A stretch of 52,980 bases of DNA from assembly GCF_002887595.1 (NCBI RefSeq), contig NZ_PEBU01000019.1, forward strand, positions 1 through 52,980, given 5' to 3'. Of the stretch, positions 27,325 to 41,016 are shown piece after piece. The position numbers and the translations under genes are program-made. Positions within the stretch are counted from its first letter, which is position 1. Each line of letters begins with the position of its first letter. Source of the stretch: Bowmanella denitrificans (GTDB lineage: Bacteria > Pseudomonadota > Gammaproteobacteria > Enterobacterales > Alteromonadaceae). The notes beneath the pieces are model-generated. The model saw only the letters and a program-made list of their open reading frames with translations. It was not told the origin of the DNA and did not search any database.

Positions 27325-28716
27325 GTGAAAGTTGTATCTCACAAAGAGCGCGACAGCAAAGTCGAAAAACTGAAAATCCCGCCTCATTCCATTGAGGCTG
27401 AACAGTCTGTTATCGGCAGCATGCTTATTGCACCGGATTGCTGGGACAAAGTAGCCGAAATTCTGATTGAGCAGGATTTTTATAATCGTGCCCATCAAAC
27501 CATATATAAAACCATTCTTAAACTCTTAGGTGACAGTCAGCCGGTGGATTTGATCACCGTATCCGATGTACTGGAGCAGCAGGATGAGCTGGAGGGCGTG
27601 GGCGGTTTTGCATACCTGGGTGAATTGGCAAAAAACACTCCCAGTGCAGCAAACGTGGTGGCCTATGCACAAATTATCAAGGAAAGGGCAGTCCTGCGCG
27701 AGCTTATCGGAGTCGCGCATGAAATTGCCGACACGGGGTACAACCCGGAAGGTCGCAGCAGTGGCGATGTGCTGGACCTGGCGGAAAGCAAGGTGTTTGA
27801 GATTGCCGAAAAGCGTTCCGGCAATAATGAAGGCCCGCAAAACGTAGAGACTATCTTAAGTCATACCATTGACCGGCTTGAAGCGCTGATTAAGAACAAC
27901 AAGGAAGTTACCGGGGTATCGACGGGCTATAAGGATTTGGATAAAAAAACCAGTGGCTTGCAACCATCCGACCTGATAATCGTAGCGGCGCGTCCCTCAA
28001 TGGGAAAAACCACCTTCGCCATGAACCTGTGCGAAAATGCCATGCTGCTGGAAGAAAAACCTGTACTGGTATTCAGCCTGGAAATGCCGGCCGAACAAAT
28101 TATGATGAGGATGCTGGCCTCGCTGAGCCGGGTTGACCAGACCCGTATCCGGACTGCACAACTGGATGACGAAGATTGGGCCAGAATCTCAAATACCATG
28201 GCCATGCTTAAGGATAAAGATAATCTGTTTGTGGATGACTCATCCGGTCTGACGCCAATGGAAGTGCGCACACGGGCGCGCAAACTGGCGCGTGAGCGCG
28301 GTGGTCTGGCCTTGATTATGGTGGATTATTTGCAATTAATGCAGGTGCCTTCTTTAAGTGATAACCGGACCCTGGAGATTGCCGAGATCTCCCGGTCGTT
28401 AAAAGCCCTGGCCAAAGAACTGCAGGTGCCGGTGGTGGCGCTCTCTCAGTTAAACCGAAGTCTGGAACAGCGGGCTGACAAACGCCCGGTTAACTCTGAC
28501 TTACGGGAATCCGGCTCTATTGAGCAGGACGCCGACTTGATTATGTTTATCTATCGTGACGAGGTCTATCACGAGAACAGCGAGTACAAAGGTATTGCTG
28601 AGATCATTATAGGTAAGCAGCGGAATGGTCCGATTGGAACCTGCCGTTTGACCTTTCAGGGGCAGTTTTCCCGCTTCGACAATTACGCCGGCCCGGAAAT
28701 CGCCGACGAGTATTGA
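27325..28716 (+). CDS. dnaB: Replicative DNA helicase DnaB
   Basis: The hexameric 5'-3' helicase of the replication fork. The 463-residue protein has the N-terminal primase-interacting domain (PPHSIEAEQSVIGSMLIAPD, AYLGELAKNTPSAANVVAYA) and the RecA-like motor: Walker A VAARPSMGKTTFAMNLCENA, LVFSLEMPAEQIMMRMLASL, Walker B LIMVDYLQLM, VVALSQLNRSLEQRADKRP and the arginine-finger region DLRESGSIEQDADLIMFIYR. The start is GTG at 27325, matching the family N-terminus, with a weak ribosome-binding site. No intein is present. It is monocistronic here; alr does not follow. Confidence 0.97.
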   Translation: MKVVSHKERDSKVEKLKIPPHSIEAEQSVIGSMLIAPDCWDKVAEILIEQDFYNRAHQTIYKTILKLLGDSQPVDLITVSDVLEQQDELEGVGGFAYLGELAKNTPSAANVVAYAQIIKERAVLRELIGVAHEIADTGYNPEGRSSGDVLDLAESKVFEIAEKRSGNNEGPQNVETILSHTIDRLEALIKNNKEVTGVSTGYKDLDKKTSGLQPSDLIIVAARPSMGKTTFAMNLCENAMLLEEKPVLVFSLEMPAEQIMMRMLASLSRVDQTRIRTAQLDDEDWARISNTMAMLKDKDNLFVDDSSGLTPMEVRTRARKLARERGGLALIMVDYLQLMQVPSLSDNRTLEIAEISRSLKALAKELQVPVVALSQLNRSLEQRADKRPVNSDLRESGSIEQDADLIMFIYRDEVYHENSEYKGIAEIIIGKQRNGPIGTCRLTFQGQFSRFDNYAGPEIADEY

Positions 28717-31080: not shown

Positions 31081-31515
31081 TCAATTTTGGCAACTGGCAC
31101 AAGTGCCGTGTGCTTCAATGGTCTGAGATTCCACTTTAAAGCCATAGGCCTTAGCCTGATTATCCAGAGTTTCTTTCAGACCTTCAGACTGAATTTCCTG
31201 AACTTCGCCACAAGTGTCGCAGATCAGAAACTGTACCGGATGGTTGCAACCAAAATGATGGCAGGCAACAAAAGCGTTGTTGGACTCCAGTCTGTGTACC
31301 AAACCAAACTCAAGCAAGAAATCCAGGGTACGATATACCGTAGCTGGCTTCGCTGAGCTTTCTGTTTCCTTCAGCTCGTCAAGCAGCTCATAAGCACCTG
31401 TTGCGCCTTGCTTTTGCAGCAACAGGCCGTAAACCTTCTCCCTTAACAAGGTAAAACGGGCACCCTTACCTTCACAATATCGTCTGGCTTTTTCAACTAG
31501 TTTCTGGTGATTCAT
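31081..31515 (-). CDS. zur: Zinc uptake regulator Zur (Fur family)
   Basis: The 144-residue protein is a Fur-family repressor of the Zur type. It has a winged helix (LREKVYGLLLQKQGATGAYE, AKPATVYRTLDFLLEFGLVH), the metal-binding His-rich strand (FVACHHFGCNHPVQFLICDT), and two CxxC pairs, CDTC and CASC, that hold structural zinc. Position also supports Zur, since it is next to and divergent from dusA, a pairing also seen near zur in E. coli. It represses zinc uptake genes when zinc is sufficient. Confidence 0.9.
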   Translation of the reverse strand: MNHQKLVEKARRYCEGKGARFTLLREKVYGLLLQKQGATGAYELLDELKETESSAKPATVYRTLDFLLEFGLVHRLESNNAFVACHHFGCNHPVQFLICDTCGEVQEIQSEGLKETLDNQAKAYGFKVESQTIEAHGTCASCQN

Positions 31516-31680: not shown

Positions 31681-32718
31681 ATGATACAAAATTCAGTTCC
31701 TTGCCAAGTCAGTAAAGACGCTATCAGGTTTAATCGCGCCTTGTCCATCGCGCCCATGCTCGACTGGACAGACCGGCACTACCGCTACTTTATGCGCAAG
31801 ATCACCCGTCATACTTTGTTGTATACCGAGATGGTGACAACCGGTGCCATTTTGTTCGGTAAAGGTGACTACCTTGGGTTTAATCAAGAAGAACACCCCG
31901 TAGCTTTACAATTGGGAGGGTCTGACCCTGCTGATATGGCGGAATGTGCCCGACGTGCTGAACAACGTGGCTACGATGAAGTAAACATCAATGTTGGTTG
32001 CCCGTCTGATCGTGTGCAAAATGGTCGCTTTGGCGCTTGTCTGATGGCCGAACCTGACACCGTTGCTGCCTGTGTTACTGCCATGCAAAAGGCCATTGAT
32101 ATCCCTGTCACAGTAAAATGTCGCATCGGCATTGACGATATGGACGAGTATACCCACCTGGATGATTTTATCAGGCGGGTGGCGGATGCAGGCTGTGATA
32201 CCTTTATTATTCATGCCAGAAAGGCCTGGTTGCAGGGGCTGAGTCCCAAAGAAAACCGTGAGATTCCACCGTTGATGTATGACAGGGTACATCTGCTTAA
32301 ACAACATTTTCCGCATCTGCATCTGAGTATTAACGGTGGAATCAAAACCCTGCTTGATGCTCAGTTACATCTGCAGTATCTGGATGGTGTGATGATTGGT
32401 CGCGAGGCCTATGCTAACCCCTATATGTTTGCTGAATCAGATCGTCTACTTTTTGCCGACCAGCATGACATTCTCAGTCGTGAAGATATCGTCCGGGCCA
32501 TGGTTCCCTATGTCAATGAACAGGTAAGCAAAGGAGCTAGAGTCTGGCATATTGCCAGACATATGCTGGGTTTATTTCAAGGACAACCAGGTGGACGTAT
32601 TTGGCGGCGTTTTCTGAGTGAAAATGGTAGCCAGGCTGTTGATGGGCAGTTGTTACTGCAAGCACTGGCTTGTCGGCAAGAGAGTCTCGAAAAGTCGAGA
32701 CATACTGAGGTTGGCTAA
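31681..32718 (+). CDS. dusA: tRNA-dihydrouridine(20/20a) synthase DusA
   Basis: This FMN enzyme reduces U20 and U20a of tRNA. The 345-residue protein shows [48 protein letters not shown], the catalytic-cysteine motif [50 protein letters not shown] and [15 protein letters not shown], all typical of DusA. The first 16 residues are not conserved, so an internal start is possible, but there is no better ribosome-binding site. The 5' ends of dusA genes are known integration sites; no integrase or att duplication is seen here. Confidence 0.94.
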
Positions 32719-32738
32719 TTTGACGATACTTTTGCGTC

Positions 32739-32748
32739 TTTGACCAAA
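32739..32748 (+). promoter_or_regulatory. Candidate activator site upstream of the small-protein operon
   Basis: TTTGACCAAA (a TTTG-AC-CAAA inverted repeat) begins exactly 102 bases before the TTGGCAC of the sigma-54 promoter at 32841. The same decamer is found at the same 102-base distance from the pspA promoter (33573 to 33675). This is the expected place for the upstream activating site of a sigma-54 enhancer-binding protein such as PspF. Confidence 0.65.
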
Positions 32749-32840
32749 CAATGTGCTAGTCGTTCTTCTTGCTACTGATGTTCGAACCGTGTTTTTCTTT
32801 TAATTCATTATTTTTCAATGTGTTAAGTGTTTTTTCCGAG

Positions 32841-32858
32841 TTGGCACAAGTCTCGCTA
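32841..32858 (+). promoter_or_regulatory. Sigma-54 promoter of the small-protein operon
   Basis: TTGGCAC-AAGTC-TCGCTA has the -24 GG and -12 GC dinucleotides with the exact spacing required by sigma-54 (TGGCAC N5 TTGCA). The predicted start of transcription is near 32867, about 45 bases before the first start codon. The -24 half and the next three bases are identical to the pspA promoter downstream. Confidence 0.85.
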
Positions 32859-32912
32859 CAACTATTCTGTCAGTTAATGCGACTTAGTACTTGAACCAAC
32901 CCGGAGAATATT

Positions 32913-33188
32913 ATGTTTAACAAAGTAAAATTGACCGCCGCTGCTCTGCTTATGACTGCCTCTATGGGAGCCAGTGCACAAACCACAGATGTGTCGTTTC
33001 AGGAGTTTGTCTCTCATATGCTGAGCACGGCCATGAGCACAGCCAGCCAGGAAATGCATAGCAACCTTAATGAAGCCGTGAGCCACGCGTTAAATAACCT
33101 GATTCAGGAAAACGATGTTGCTGAGTCAGTACAATTGGTTGAACGCAGCCAGAAAGTGGAGCAGGACAAAAACAAGCAGGCCGAATAA
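32913..33188 (+). CDS. Small predicted periplasmic helical protein, sigma-54 controlled
   Basis: The 91-residue protein has a signal peptide (MFNKVKLTAAALLMTASMGA, cleavage after SAQ or just before it) and a mature part of about 68 residues that is helical and charged: VSFQEFVSHMLSTAMSTASQ, EMHSNLNEAVSHALNNLIQE, ENDVAESVQLVERSQKVEQD. It has no cysteines. GGAG eight bases before the ATG is a good ribosome-binding site. Its stop codon overlaps the ATG of the next small gene (TAATG). Position (after dusA) and sigma-54 control match E. coli pspG, but the sequence is not PspG. I do not recognise the family; a role in envelope stress is inferred. Confidence 0.8.
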   Translation: MFNKVKLTAAALLMTASMGASAQTTDVSFQEFVSHMLSTAMSTASQEMHSNLNEAVSHALNNLIQENDVAESVQLVERSQKVEQDKNKQAE

Positions 33189-33325
33189 TGATGTTGGATC
33201 AGACTCATTTACTCAGCTTATTACTGCTACCACTCATCACATTCTTGGTCGGGGCGCTGGTTTTTAATGCTGTTGAACGCAAGTTAATTAAAGCCCCGAG
33301 CTTTTCCCCCCAAGACGGTCGCTAA
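33188..33325 (+). CDS. 45-residue single-helix membrane protein coupled to the preceding gene
   Basis: The small gene reads MMLDQTHLLSLLLLPLITFL then VGALVFNAVERKLIKAPSFS and PQDGR. It has one membrane helix (about residues 8-27) followed by a basic, cytoplasm-facing tail. It starts within the stop of the periplasmic protein gene (one-base overlap), which implies coupled translation and a joint function. Its last codons form the left arm of the terminator stem, so the gene is closely fitted to the transcript end. Not recognised as PspG, PspB or any other family. It is the second gene of the sigma-54 unit. Confidence 0.75.
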   Translation: MMLDQTHLLSLLLLPLITFLVGALVFNAVERKLIKAPSFSPQDGR

Positions 33326-33347
33326 AGTAGTACGACCGTCTTTTTTA
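33312..33347 (+). terminator. Terminator overlapping the end of the 45-residue gene
   Basis: A perfect 10-bp stem AAGACGGTCG / CGACCGTCTT encloses an 11-base loop containing the stop codon and is followed by TTTTATTT. It ends the small-protein operon. Confidence 0.92.
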
Positions 33348-33377
33348 TTTGCACCCACGTCAACTCAATCTAGCCTG

Positions 33378-33458
33378 CTTTTCAGTCTTTTCAGTCTTTT
33401 CAGTCTTTTCAGTCTTTTCAGTCTTTTCAGTCTTTTCAGTCTTTTCAGTCTTTTCAGT
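33378..33458. repeat. Nine perfect tandem copies of a 9-base unit
   Basis: The unit CTTTTCAGT is repeated nine times without a mismatch over 81 bases, after which the pattern decays (CCTTTTAGGG). It lies in the 432-base gap between the small-protein operon and pspA. That gap also holds the terminator at 33312, the activator-like palindrome at 33566 and the pspA promoter at 33675; I find no further gene in it. A perfect short-unit array is expected to vary in copy number by slippage. Confidence 0.97.
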
Positions 33459-33565
33459 CCTTTTAGGGGTCTGTCATCAGCCCTCCGTTTTGAGGATTCT
33501 GGTGCTTTAACGTTGAACGTGAATGTCTATCCCTATCTCCGCGTTGGTTAGTTATGCCATATCGG

Positions 33566-33585
33566 TGGTCAATTTGACCAAATTG
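33566..33585. promoter_or_regulatory. Overlapping palindromes, candidate activator site for pspA
   Basis: Two perfect inverted repeats overlap here: TGGTCAA-T-TTGACCA (33566-33580) and CAATTTG-AC-CAAATTG (33570-33585). The second contains the decamer TTTGACCAAA shared with the small-protein operon, again 102 bases before the -24 element. The likely binder is PspF or another enhancer-binding protein; no such gene is in the window. Confidence 0.65.
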
Positions 33586-33674
33586 TGTAATTGCGAGATT
33601 TCGAAAACCTAACACGACGCTATTCATGAGAGAAATAATTCATTTAAAACAGTCTGTTAGGCGTTTTCTTGAAG

Positions 33675-33691
33675 TTGGCACAAGCCTTGTA
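33675..33691 (+). promoter_or_regulatory. Sigma-54 promoter of the psp operon
   Basis: TTGGCAC-AAGCC-TTGTA has a perfect -24 element with correct spacing to a -12 element in which the usual GC is GT. pspA in E. coli is transcribed by sigma-54 with PspF, so the assignment fits. Blocks just upstream (TAATTCATT, and TGTTAGGCGTTTT versus TGTTAAGTGTTTT) are also shared with the promoter at 32841. Confidence 0.8.
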
Positions 33692-33757: not shown

Positions 33758-34429
33758 ATGGGTGTCTTTTCAAGAATGAACGACATAGTACAAGCCAATC
33801 TGAATGCTCTGCTGGATAAAGCCGAAGACCCTAAAAAGGTCATTCGTCTTATTGTGCAGGAAATGGAAGAAACCTTGGTAGAACTGAGAGCCATTGCCGC
33901 ACGTAACCTGGCCGCCAAGAAAGAGTTGCAACGTAAGATTAACCGTTTGAATCAGCAAATCTCTGAATGGCAGAGCAAAGCGGAACTGGCCCTGACTAAG
34001 GAACGTGAAGATCTGGCCAAATTGGCATTAAGCGAAAAGCATAAGCTGGAACAGCAAATTGCTGGACTGGACGCAGAAATGCAACAGGCGGAAGACGCCC
34101 TACAGCAACTGCAACAAGACAGCGCCCGTCTGCAGGAAAAACTGTCTGAGGCCAGAACTAAACAGAAAGCGCTGATGATGCGGGAAGAATCCGTTGCCGC
34201 CAGACTAAAAGTCAAAGTCAGCAACGACAGTCAGAAAGTTGAACAGGTAATGCAGCGTTTTGATCATTACGAATATCGTGTCGAGCAGTTGGAAGCCCAA
34301 CTGGAAGCTTACGACATCACGGCGGCACAAAACGGTTTGCATGCCCAGTTTGCTGAGCTTGAAGCTGACGAAAAAATGCAGGCCGAGTTGGAAGAGTTAA
34401 AGCAAAAAGTGCAGAAGAAAGTGGCGTAA
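33758..34429 (+). CDS. pspA: Phage shock protein A
   Basis: The 223-residue protein belongs to the PspA/IM30 (ESCRT-III-like) family, which coats and stabilises the stressed inner membrane and restrains PspF. It has the amphipathic N-terminus MGVFSRMNDIVQANLNALLD, the conserved EDPKKVIRLIVQEMEETLVE and long coiled coils (AKKELQRKINRLNQQISEWQ, KHKLEQQIAGLDAEMQQAED) up to the C-terminal YEYRVEQLEAQLEAYD. The ATG at 33758 is set by GGAGGA eight bases upstream; an in-frame start at 33743 is less likely. It is the first gene of a sigma-54-controlled operon with pspC. Confidence 0.96.
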   Translation: MGVFSRMNDIVQANLNALLDKAEDPKKVIRLIVQEMEETLVELRAIAARNLAAKKELQRKINRLNQQISEWQSKAELALTKEREDLAKLALSEKHKLEQQIAGLDAEMQQAEDALQQLQQDSARLQEKLSEARTKQKALMMREESVAARLKVKVSNDSQKVEQVMQRFDHYEYRVEQLEAQLEAYDITAAQNGLHAQFAELEADEKMQAELEELKQKVQKKVA

Positions 34430-34480: not shown

Positions 34481-34681
34481 ATGAGAACACTGTATGACGA
34501 TCAACGTATCCGTAAAGATAAGATCCGCGCCAAGCTGTCAGGTGTCTGTGCTGGCTTAGCACAGCATTGGAACACGCAACCCTGGATGATCCGCCTGGCG
34601 GCCCTGGTGATCTTCTTTCATTTCCCTGTCGCGATGCTGATTGCCTATGTCGTTGCCGCGATGGTGCTACCTTCAAGGTAA
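34481..34681 (+). CDS. pspC: PspC-domain envelope stress protein
   Basis: The 66-residue protein is little more than a PspC domain: IRAKLSGVCAGLAQHWNTQP, WMIRLAALVIFFHFPVAMLI, AYVVAAMVLP. PspC (with PspB in E. coli) is the inner-membrane sensor that recruits PspA. It is shorter than E. coli PspC (119 residues) and has no C-terminal coiled coil. AGGAGAAAATC precedes the ATG at 34481. No pspB lies between pspA and pspC. Confidence 0.88.
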   Translation: MRTLYDDQRIRKDKIRAKLSGVCAGLAQHWNTQPWMIRLAALVIFFHFPVAMLIAYVVAAMVLPSR

Positions 34682-34692
34682 GGAGTCTTGTC

Positions 34693-35028
34693 ATGTTCAA
34701 GAACTTTATTATCGCTATATTAATTGCCACATTGCTGGTGTATTGCCTGGGCACGGTTGCAGACTCCTGGGGCAGTGTGCATCTGTACCTGGACGATGAT
34801 CTACTGTCGCCTGCAATCACGCTGGTGGGCGGAGTTCTTCTGGCTATAGGCTTTATACTGCTGGGGCTGATGTTGGCGGTCAGTTTGTTTGGGGTCCTGG
34901 CGTTTGTTTTTATCTGTGTGTTTGGTGCGCTATTGATTGCCGGATTGGGGGCGCTATGGCCTGCATTATTGGGTATTTTGGTGGTGGTTTGGCTGGTCCG
35001 GGATGGCAAAGCCAGTCAACCCCAGTAA
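34693..35028 (+). CDS. Psp-operon membrane protein, unknown function
   Basis: The 111-residue, very hydrophobic protein starts MFKNFIIAILIATLLVYCLG and has about four membrane helices (ITLVGGVLLAIGFILLGLML, FGVLAFVFICVFGALLIAGL, PALLGILVVVWLVRDG), with a short loop WGSVHLYLDDDLLSP after the first. The ATG at 34693 follows AAGGAG by eight bases and lies 11 bases after pspC, so it is the third gene of the psp operon. It does not look like E. coli PspD. It may replace PspB or PspG function; that is inference. No clear terminator follows before 35123. Confidence 0.75.
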   Translation: MFKNFIIAILIATLLVYCLGTVADSWGSVHLYLDDDLLSPAITLVGGVLLAIGFILLGLMLAVSLFGVLAFVFICVFGALLIAGLGALWPALLGILVVVWLVRDGKASQPQ

Positions 35029-35122: not shown

Positions 35123-35569
35123 ATGCGTTACTTGCTTTTAGCCTTACTTTTGAGCACTTCTACTTTTGTTACCGCACAACTGCAGGTAGATAACGCCACC
35201 ATCAGGTTGTTGCCTCCGGGTGTGCCGAATACTGCCGGATACTTTACCTTAGTTAATCATGGCCAACATGACCGCATTCTGGTGGGGGCCCGCTGCTCAT
35301 TAGTACAGAAAGCTGAACTGCATGATCACCAGATGGTGGACGGTATGATGAAAATGACACAGCAGCAGCGCGTGGTCGTTCCGGCCGGTGAACAGGTGGC
35401 GTTTCAACCTGGAGGGCTGCATTTAATGCTGTTTGGTCTAAAGTCTCCATTACAGGATGGCCAAAGGGTGCCTCTGACTTTGTTGTTTGCCGATGGTGAA
35501 GAGTTGCAGGTTGATGCGGTCGTTGGCAGTGCTGTAAAAGTTGAAGATCATTCCCACCATCATCACTAA
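35123..35569 (+). CDS. Periplasmic copper chaperone, PCu(A)C family
   Basis: The 148-residue protein has a signal peptide (MRYLLLALLLSTSTFVTA) and the PCu(A)C fold: NATIRLLPPGVPNTAGYFTL, the His/Met-rich copper site in ELHDHQMVDGMMKM, and the second half-site in PGGLHLMLFGLKSPL. It delivers Cu(I) to cytochrome oxidase subunits or other cuproproteins. The C-terminus ends in a His cluster (DHSHHHH), an extra metal-binding tail. AGGAG lies eight bases before the ATG. It begins a run with DUF2333 and an outer-membrane barrel gene, with short gaps. Confidence 0.88.
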   Translation: MRYLLLALLLSTSTFVTAQLQVDNATIRLLPPGVPNTAGYFTLVNHGQHDRILVGARCSLVQKAELHDHQMVDGMMKMTQQQRVVVPAGEQVAFQPGGLHLMLFGLKSPLQDGQRVPLTLLFADGEELQVDAVVGSAVKVEDHSHHHH

Positions 35570-39319: not shown

Positions 39320-41016
39320 TGAGTGACAATCAGGAACAAAAGCTTTCCGACAACGAGCGGCTCAAGCGGGAAAGTAATTTCCTGCGCGGTACTATTGCGC
39401 AGGATTTGCAAGACGACTTAACCGGCGGCTTTACGGCTGACAATTTCCAGTTGATTCGTTTTCACGGCATGTATCAGCAGGATGACCGGGATATTCGTGC
39501 CGAGCGTGCCAAACAGAAGCTGGAGCCACTGCACAATGTGATGTTGCGTTGCCGTTTGCCCGGGGGGATTATCACGCCCAAACAGTGGCTGGCGATTGAT
39601 GAGTTTGCCGAGCAGCATACTTTGTATGGCAGCATCCGACTGACCACCCGCCAAACCTTCCAGTTTCATGGGGTGTTAAAACCTAATATTAAGCCTATGC
39701 ATCAGATGCTTAATAGTATTGGGCTGGACTCCATTGCCACGGCGGGTGATGTCAACCGCAACGTGCTTTGTACTTCCAACCCGGTGGAGTCTGAAGTGCA
39801 CCAGCAGGCCTATGAGTGGGCGGTGAAAATCAGTGAACATCTGTTACCTAAAACCCGCGCCTATGCGGAAATCTGGATGGATGAAGAAAAGCTGGAAACT
39901 ACCGACGTTGAGCCCATTCTAGGTAGTACGTACTTACCTCGTAAGTTCAAAACCACCGTGGTGATACCGCCGCAGAACGACGTGGATGTGCATGCCAATG
40001 ATCTGAACTTTGTTGCCATTGCCGAAGGTGGCAAGCTGGTGGGCTTTAACGTTCTGGTGGGGGGCGGTCTGGCCATGACTCATGGCGACAAAACCACCTA
40101 TCCACGCAAAGCCGATGATTTTGGCTTTATTCCTCTGGATAAAACCCTGGCGGTAGCGGAAGCCGTGGTCAGCACTCAGCGTGACTGGGGTAACCGCAGC
40201 AACCGTAAGAATGCCAAGACCAAATATACCTTGGAACGGGTAGGGGTGGACACCTTTAAAGCCGAGGTGGAAAAACGTGCTGAGGTCACCTTTGCGCCAA
40301 GTCGGGCCTATGAATTTACTGGCCGTGGTGACCGTTTCGGTTGGGTTGAAGGTGTGGACGGCAAGCACCACCTGACCTTGTTTATTGAGAATGGTCGGAT
40401 TCTGGATTATCCAGGCAAGCCACTGAAAACCGGCTGTGCCGAGATTGCCAAAATACATCAGGGGGATTTTCGTCTGACCGCTAATCAGAACCTGATTGTT
40501 GCGGGGGTGGCGGCTGAGCACAAAGCCAAGATCGAAGAAATCGCTATACAGCATGGCCTGATCCAACCCGATGTGACGGCGCAAAGACAAAACTCTATGG
40601 CCTGTGTGTCATTACCAACTTGCCCACTGGCCATGGCCGAGGCGGAACGTTACCTGCCGGATGCGGTAACCGAGTTAGAGCAGATCATGGCCAAACATGG
40701 TATGGCCGAAGAGCATATTATTTTCCGTGTCACCGGCTGTCCAAATGGTTGTGGCCGCGCCATGCTGGCCGAAGTTGGTTTGGTAGGTAAAGGGCCGGGT
40801 AAATATAACCTGCACCTGGGTGGCGATCGTAATGGCACCCGTATACCCAGGATGTACAGGGAAAACATCGGTGAGCAGGAAATTATGCAGGAACTGGATG
40901 CGCTGATTGGCCAATGGGCCAAGCTCAGACTGGCTGACGAAGGCTTTGGTGATTTTCTGATCCGTAATGATGTCATCAAACCCGTGGTGAATTCCGCTAA
41001 GGATTTTTATGACTGA
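39319..41016 (+). CDS. cysI: Sulfite reductase (NADPH) hemoprotein beta-component
   Basis: CysI carries the siroheme-4Fe4S centre for the six-electron reduction of sulfite. In the 565-residue protein the cluster cysteines are visible as C429-x5-C435 (CVSLPTC) and C474-x3-C478 (GCPNGCG). Other conserved stretches are [31 protein letters not shown] and [20 protein letters not shown]. It overlaps cysJ by one base and cysH by eight, so the three are translationally coupled. Confidence 0.97.

Follow-up and report, generated by a model that had tools for sequence, protein, structure and literature searches.

Downstream of dusA in Bowmanella denitrificans, one sigma-54 promoter stands before a unit of two small-protein genes and another before a gene of the PspA family, which raises the question of whether a single enhancer-binding protein serves both, and which one. 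The E. coli PspF regulon is described as two transcription units; the Alteromonadaceae, to which B. denitrificans belongs, are mostly marine. The material read from sequence here consists of operators, their spacing, conservation, paralogy and synteny, all centred on the window, by which we mean the whole analysed stretch of 52,980 nucleotides. PspF-dependent sigma-54 promoters of the E. coli type are very probably the best explanation for both units. What is unusual is the second psp cluster under predicted PspF control, with its undescribed small envelope proteins; the control regions themselves are standard.

Two promoters and a 17-bp operator

The preliminary description of this DNA had aligned the promoters on a decamer, TTTGACCAAA, and its placement is exact: the decamer starts at 32739 and 33573, and TTGGCACAAG starts at 32841 and 33675, 102 bases 3' of it at each promoter. 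The intermediate blocks TAATTCATT and TGTTA-G-GTTTT are likewise common to both, the second of them taking in the end of the IHF-like WATCARNNNNTTR. Between the decamers 34 of 92 bases match, where mononucleotide shuffles give a mean of 25.3 matches (sd 4.0) and 216 of 10,000 reach 34. Both promoters carry the conserved GG and GC or GT of a -24/-12 element, the -12 of the small-protein promoter being the non-consensus TCGC (vs TTGC). All features are collected in the table.

Table. Features of the dusA-linked locus and its neighbourhood (window positions)
Feature	Position	Strand	Remarks
dnaB-like helicase	27325–28716		named from its sequence
Zur-like gene	31081–31515	-	147.5 bits, under the 167-bit cut-off
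dusA (tRNA-dihydrouridine synthase A)	31681–32718	+	Pfam Dus E 4.6e-91; upstream neighbour
Distal PspF-type operator, small-protein promoter	32711–32727	+	TTGGCTAATTTGACGAT; 9.1 bits
Proximal PspF-type operator, small-protein promoter	32731–32747	+	TTTGCGTCTTTGACCAA; 9.1 bits; overlaps the decamer of the preliminary description
IHF-like site, small-protein promoter	32813–32825	+	WATCARNNNNTTR; 8/9 positions; 29 bp before -24
-24/-12 sigma-54 element, small-protein operon	32842–32856	+	TGGCAC-N5-TCGC; TGGCACAAGTCTCGC
Element near expected transcription start	32879–32886	+	GCGACTTA; TCGC...GCGA inverted repeat with the -12 element
sp91	32913–33188	+	91 aa; signal-peptide-like N-terminus (by eye and simple pattern)
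sp45	33191–33325	+	44 aa; one hydrophobic segment; no Pfam match
Hairpin then T run	33312–33342	+	-15.1 kcal/mol, z -4.2 for 33305–33352
Tandem repeat, 9.6 copies	33378–33463	none	CTTTTCAGT; gap between small-protein and pspA2 units
Distal PspF-type operator, pspA2 promoter	33544–33560	+	TTGGTTAGTTATGCCAT; 6.3 bits
Proximal PspF-type operator, pspA2 promoter	33565–33581	+	GTGGTCAATTTGACCAA; 20.9 bits
IHF-like site, pspA2 promoter	33647–33659	+	8/9 positions; 29 bp before -24
-24/-12 sigma-54 element, pspA2	33676–33690	+	TGGCAC-N5-TTGT; TGGCACAAGCCTTGT
pspA2, pspA paralogue	33758–34429	+	TIGR02977 264 bits, cut-off 242.95
pspC2, 66-aa PspC-domain protein	34481–34681	+	PspC E 2.6e-15
orf4, 111-aa hydrophobic helical protein	34693–35028	+	weak PspG profile similarity

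A motif search on 55 pspF–pspA spacers (the 56 canonical ones minus that of B. denitrificans) returned a 17-bp inverted repeat, roughly TTRGTNNATTTNACTAA. The decamer had been read as an inverted-repeat operator, and an inverted repeat it is, but it stands out of register with the whole element, which is 17 bp long; a further 17-bp copy, which each promoter has 20 or 21 bp farther upstream, had been missed. The decamer was rejected as the whole operator, the 17-bp inverted repeat being the conserved unit. A scoring matrix was rebuilt in symmetric form from 51 spacers, all from outside Bowmanella, and with it 33565–33581 outscores every other window position on either strand. Motif and layout agree with the canonical locus of the same genome, where an operator of the same kind was found in the pspF–pspA spacer (GTGGTCTAATCGACTAA, 17.5 bits, 111 bp from its -24 element). 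In 25 of the 51 spacers the distance between the best site and the -24 element is 111 bp, and in 43 it falls within 109–112 bp; +20 bp is the sole other offset with a mean score above -6 (1.7). At the small-protein promoter the proximal operator lies 20 bp from the distal copy and 111 bp from the -24 element; at the pspA2 promoter the copies are 21 bp apart, with the proximal one again at 111 bp.

The small-protein operators are weak singly, 9.1 bits being reached at five window positions, both copies included, and what makes them persuasive is the pair with its conserved spacing rather than the single scores. When the window was scanned for copies 19–21 bp apart, the pair at 33544 came first (27.3 bits), that at 32711 second (18.2) and the third reached 10.1, while the maxima of 40 simulated windows had a mean of 4.2 and a highest value of 11.2. 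A further single site at 40984 (17.1–19.5 bits) was taken as chance, as it falls inside the final part of a coding ORF and its best pair, at 10.1, is inside the range of the simulated windows. In a genome search with a tandem model, 33544–33581 was the top match (E 0.003, next 0.6; 150 of 2488 candidates scored). The small-protein operator, the canonical spacer and the candidate target on contig C6 described below (L145) are all missing from those 150 of 2488, and the search is an incomplete census of PspF targets, given this fraction and the absence of the canonical spacer. A genome scan for the 17-mer with up to three mismatches gave 31 sites against 32 for the reversed control, hence no excess. 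Among the matches listed from outside Bowmanella (tandem pairs over 14 bits), the copies are 20 bp apart in 40/40 canonical spacers and 21 bp apart in 29/32 pspA2 loci, a systematic one-base shift between the two kinds of listed pairs.

Conservation in relatives was followed over 91 pspA loci (L001, L039–L128), which are part of all pspA matches; a divergent pspF is present in 56 of them and lacking in the 35 that we call pspA2. Every one of the 35 pspA2 loci has at least one sigma-54-like site with an operator that reaches 12 bits. Of the upstream sigma-54-like sites, 52 of 81 are accompanied by such an operator; for control sites elsewhere in these loci the count is 1 of 106, and for 1400 random positions, promoters included, the share is 3.3%. 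With the threshold lowered to 9 bits, 23/35 loci have at least two such sites, some of them overlapping calls on one promoter. It is this longer inverted repeat that relatives keep, not the decamer, whose conservation had been proposed as a check. The exact decamer occurs somewhere upstream of pspA in 8/91 loci (both strands, window included); at pspA2 it sits at the matching place, some 185 bases before the gene, in B. pacifica and B. yangjiangensis, but is turned round in B. dokdonensis, and at the small-protein promoter it is absent from all four genus mates.

The IHF-like sites, scored against the IHF consensus, draw their weight from a fixed offset and not from their score, since 31.5% of shuffled stretches reach 8/9 at some position of this degenerate match. 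An offset of 29 bp before -24 is the commonest in relatives, and a site at 28–30 bp in plus orientation occurs in at least 37/56 canonical and at least 14/24 pspA2 promoters. Around the start region, TGGCACAACTATCGCA or something similar stands at the matching place in many relatives' small-protein promoters, and GCGACTTA is exact in 11 of 22 such promoters among the matches listed, B. denitrificans included. The succession of a TGGCACAACTATCGCA-like element and GCGACTTA is seen at 32853–32886 of the window and in L040–L044, L047, L048, L052, L054 and L078; together with TGCGA, the -12 TCGCA makes up an inverted repeat spaced by about 8 or 18 bp. This repeat may be a second operator overlapping the small-protein promoter; its loose pattern is not enriched in the B. 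denitrificans genome (8 occurrences against 35 in the control).

PspF as the candidate regulator

The proposal that one enhancer-binding protein, most simply PspF, acts on both units gains support from the 51-spacer matrix, which predicts both promoters, and from the motif GLTYHQ in the C-terminal DNA-binding region of PspF, found in PspF alone among the genome's 17 strong matches to sigma-54 activators. E. coli PspF, to which the B. denitrificans protein is 58% identical, also carries GLTYHQ. The genome has one sigma-54 gene. A second proposal, that the operator might be lineage-specific, finds no support: the same matrix picks a site at E. coli pspA (TTAGTGTAATTCGCTAA, 19.6 bits, with a 20-bp partner of 7.7; best position in the 6 kb scanned) and one at E. 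coli pspG (GTAGTCAAATTCACCAC, 19.1 bits; best position in the 10 kb scanned).

Could the likeness of the two promoters have another source? Chance resemblance in AT-rich intergenic DNA would suit the single decamers, which are at or near chance level in window and genome (22 genome copies of TTTGACCAAA against 31 for its control). The arrangement TTTGACCAAA-N80-100-TGGCAC, however, occurs exactly twice in 5.48 Mb, at these two promoters, against no occurrence of the backwards pattern; both pairs score above the maximum of any of the 40 simulated windows; and operators are conserved at the matching place in relatives, all of which leaves chance a negligible probability. Recent duplication, as opposed to maintained co-regulation, would explain the blocks in common along the 102 bp, and the genus mate G003, with its tandem small-protein genes, indicates that local duplication happens. 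We nevertheless hold it to be unlikely: no more than those 34 of 92 bases match between the decamers, and what the two promoters have in common are operator, IHF-like and sigma-54 elements, which recur between dissimilar flanks in distant relatives.

A different reading keeps the co-regulation and changes the regulator, giving both units to one of the other 16 sigma-54 activators, whose binding site would resemble that of PspF. The presence of 17 strong activator matches in the genome, a pspF that is not beside the dusA-linked locus and the difference in tandem spacing (20 bp canonical vs 21 bp pspA2, among the matches listed) speak for it. Set against these are an operator matrix derived from pspF–pspA spacers alone, the presence of GLTYHQ in 0/16 of the others, and the genome's own pspF–pspA spacer with a like operator at equal distance, and we consider another activator very unlikely. 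PspF control of both units is well supported, because the matrix ranks 33565 first and also picks the E. coli pspA and pspG sites.

Under PspF control, the regulator, encoded on contig C6 beside canonical pspABC, would bind two upstream 17-bp inverted-repeat enhancers 20–21 bp apart, with 111 bp between the nearer one and the -24 element; IHF would bend the DNA at -29, and PspF would then remodel the sigma-54 polymerase. Membrane stress would free PspF from PspA, and freed PspF would switch on canonical pspABC, pspA2-pspC2-orf4 and the small-protein unit together, the last consisting of two genes, for a secreted protein of about 90 aa and a 44-aa membrane protein. Binding by PspF and IHF, stress induction and protein functions are what we infer from the sites and genes described. 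PspA2 itself could inhibit PspF or could have lost that inhibition.

The arrangement resembles the E. coli PspF regulon (pspF-pspABCDE and dusA-pspG) in its 17-bp operator, tandem 20 bp apart at pspA, its IHF-like site and sigma-54 element, and in a regulator gene at a separate locus from the dusA-linked unit. Unlike in E. coli, the dusA slot of B. denitrificans holds two units (pspA2, pspC2, orf4 and two small proteins), each with tandem operators of which the nearer lies 111 bp from -24, whereas the best E. coli sites lie 81 bp (pspA) or 68 bp (pspG) from it. PMC3709507 gives E. coli pspA two UASs and pspG one, with IHF assisting PspF.

A further target is likely on contig C6. There, at L145 (C6:52038-52054), TTGGTCAATTTGGCTAT and a weak partner 20 bp further on score 14.9 bits as a pair; a sigma-54-like element, TGGTTCGGCTCTTGCT, follows at distance 100, and an 8/9 IHF-like site lies 18 bp before it. 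In none of four simulated genomes did a sigma-54-like site scoring 16 come after a pair of 14.8 bits or more. The ORF downstream of L145 encodes a DUF3192 protein (E 2.1e-39), and an internal start would give it a lipoprotein-like signal. Another site, L143 (18.5 bits), was set aside as a target, having no partner copy and no clear gene in front.

A second psp cluster in the dusA–pspG slot

The gene that the preliminary description called pspA does belong to the PspA family, but it is a paralogue, pspA2, and has no neighbouring pspF. Three PspA-family genes were found in the B. denitrificans genome: canonical pspABC with its divergent pspF lies on contig C6, apart from the dusA-linked locus, and the third (L003, C4:22871-23533), beside a gene named from its sequence as potassium-channel-like, falls outside both pspA groups compared. 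PspA2 is 87% identical to its counterpart in B. pacifica, 84% in B. yangjiangensis and 70% in B. dokdonensis. In a PspA tree holding 55 canonical rows, from which the canonical PspA of B. denitrificans was left out, all 35 pspA2 proteins stand on one side of a 100/98 branch, with bootstrap unsettled. A canonical pspF locus is also present in the compared set for 32/35 pspA2 genomes; for G011, G028 and G051 the second pspA match lay outside that set.

The locus follows directly after dusA, whose 3' end overlaps the first operator, and would be under PspF-type control, with orf4 as its last gene, not its first. A dnaB-like gene, a Zur-like gene and dusA precede the psp locus, a neighbourhood partly similar to that of E. 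coli dusA-pspG (zur-yjbL-yjbM-dusA-pspG-pspH-qorA-dnaB). No PspG (PF09583) was found in the B. denitrificans genome at E up to 1, and among the 98 genomes searched the family exceeds its cut-off in six, none of them among the 59 of Alteromonadaceae. Those six true pspG loci come from other families of the order; dusA lies just upstream in four, and an operator of at least 9 bits precedes a sigma-54-like site in four, L196 and L199 being without one, from which it follows that the matrix misses some expected sites. The locus occupies the dusA–pspG slot and has probably replaced pspG in Alteromonadaceae, replacement of PspG or its extreme divergence being what we infer.

With PspG, orf4 shares the slot after dusA; it differs in its 111-aa length and in the weakness of its profile similarity. 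An hhalign comparison with E. coli PspG gave 54% probability and E 1.3e-4, the resemblance being a weak one to the C-terminal part, and the structure model has two helical segments (pLDDT 84.5, pTM 0.43). It has no Pfam family at E up to 1, and none of 21 aligned members matches PspG (PF09583) at E up to 0.1. We did not accept orf4 as PspG on profile grounds; it is possibly a distant relative.

According to the main text of PMC9239133, many genomes have PspA and PspC paralogues. That text contains neither 'Alteromonad' nor 'dusA', and the main text of PMC11237479 contains none of 'Alteromonad', 'PspG' and 'small protein'. No description of the locus was found among the papers listed, judged by title and start of abstract. 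As far as PMC9239133, PMC11237479, PMC3709507, PMC8743547 and titles go, the extended regulon is not in print.

Small proteins of the upstream unit

The first product of the small-protein operon, sp91, matches no Pfam or NCBIfam family over cut-off and has relatives in 34/118 genomes, all of them Alteromonadaceae; sp45-like ORFs stand at the matching place in many relatives. Fold prediction gave sp91 a single helix at a pLDDT too low to inform (62.4), and the predicted fold found no match in the PDB. The hairpin at the end of the operon is likely its intrinsic terminator; a hairpin listing with a loop limit of 8 does not contain it.

Among small-protein loci, 19/20 have a sigma-54-like site and an operator over 9 bits, L180 being the exception; L194 and L195 are inside stretches already counted, so that 17/18 further loci are positive. 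Several are in genomes for which canonical pspA alone was found (G006, G009, G010, G018, G022, G056). That of G010 (L178) has a weak single operator, and G022 has two small-protein copies, of which L180 is the one lacking an operator. Four loci (L181, L183, L184, L188) have no dusA or psp gene within the roughly 3 kb examined. Gene and PspF-type promoter thus tend to stay together as the neighbourhood changes, and no argument for counting the small protein itself as a regulon member is stronger than this co-retention. In 12/35 pspA2 loci the gene is immediately preceded by a small signal-peptide-like ORF, apparently in one unit with it. The sp91 profile detects this ORF in 3/12 genomes (G005, G015, G043), and a profile of nine such ORFs matches the sp91 profile at 94.8% (E 5.4e-8). 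Common descent of these ORFs and sp91 is likely, if unproven, as the profile match includes the signal-peptide region.

Taken jointly, these data lead us to lean, somewhat above even chances, towards a reading in which Alteromonadaceae PspF controls an undescribed Psp component, a secreted helical small protein of about 90 aa that is produced together with a 44-aa membrane protein. The small protein would have replaced PspG at dusA before or alongside the second PspA–PspC system, giving the periplasmic membrane face a Psp effector of its own, and would have kept its PspF promoter in genomes for which no pspA2 was found and at gene locations elsewhere; the regulon would include the outer lipoprotein-like DUF3192 gene. 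If the prediction holds, the PspF regulon is wider in Alteromonadaceae than in E. coli and takes in a further PspA for membrane remodelling together with a small secreted protein induced by stress. The locus would offer a direct entry to two questions, namely which component takes the place of PspG and whether there is a periplasmic arm to the Psp response.

No tandem repeat was found between the two units in B. dokdonensis, and the repeat differs by species elsewhere, being TCCCAGC x22.7 in B. pacifica (L162 2518-2676) and CTGTTCC x14.1 in B. yangjiangensis (L163 2583-2681). The tandem small-protein genes of G003 (L043) are each followed by a hydrophobic ORF of about 45 aa. On the 3' side of orf4 lies a gene for a secreted copper-chaperone-like protein (35123-35569), which we take to be of the PCuAC type, and similar ORFs also come after psp genes in L051 and L052.
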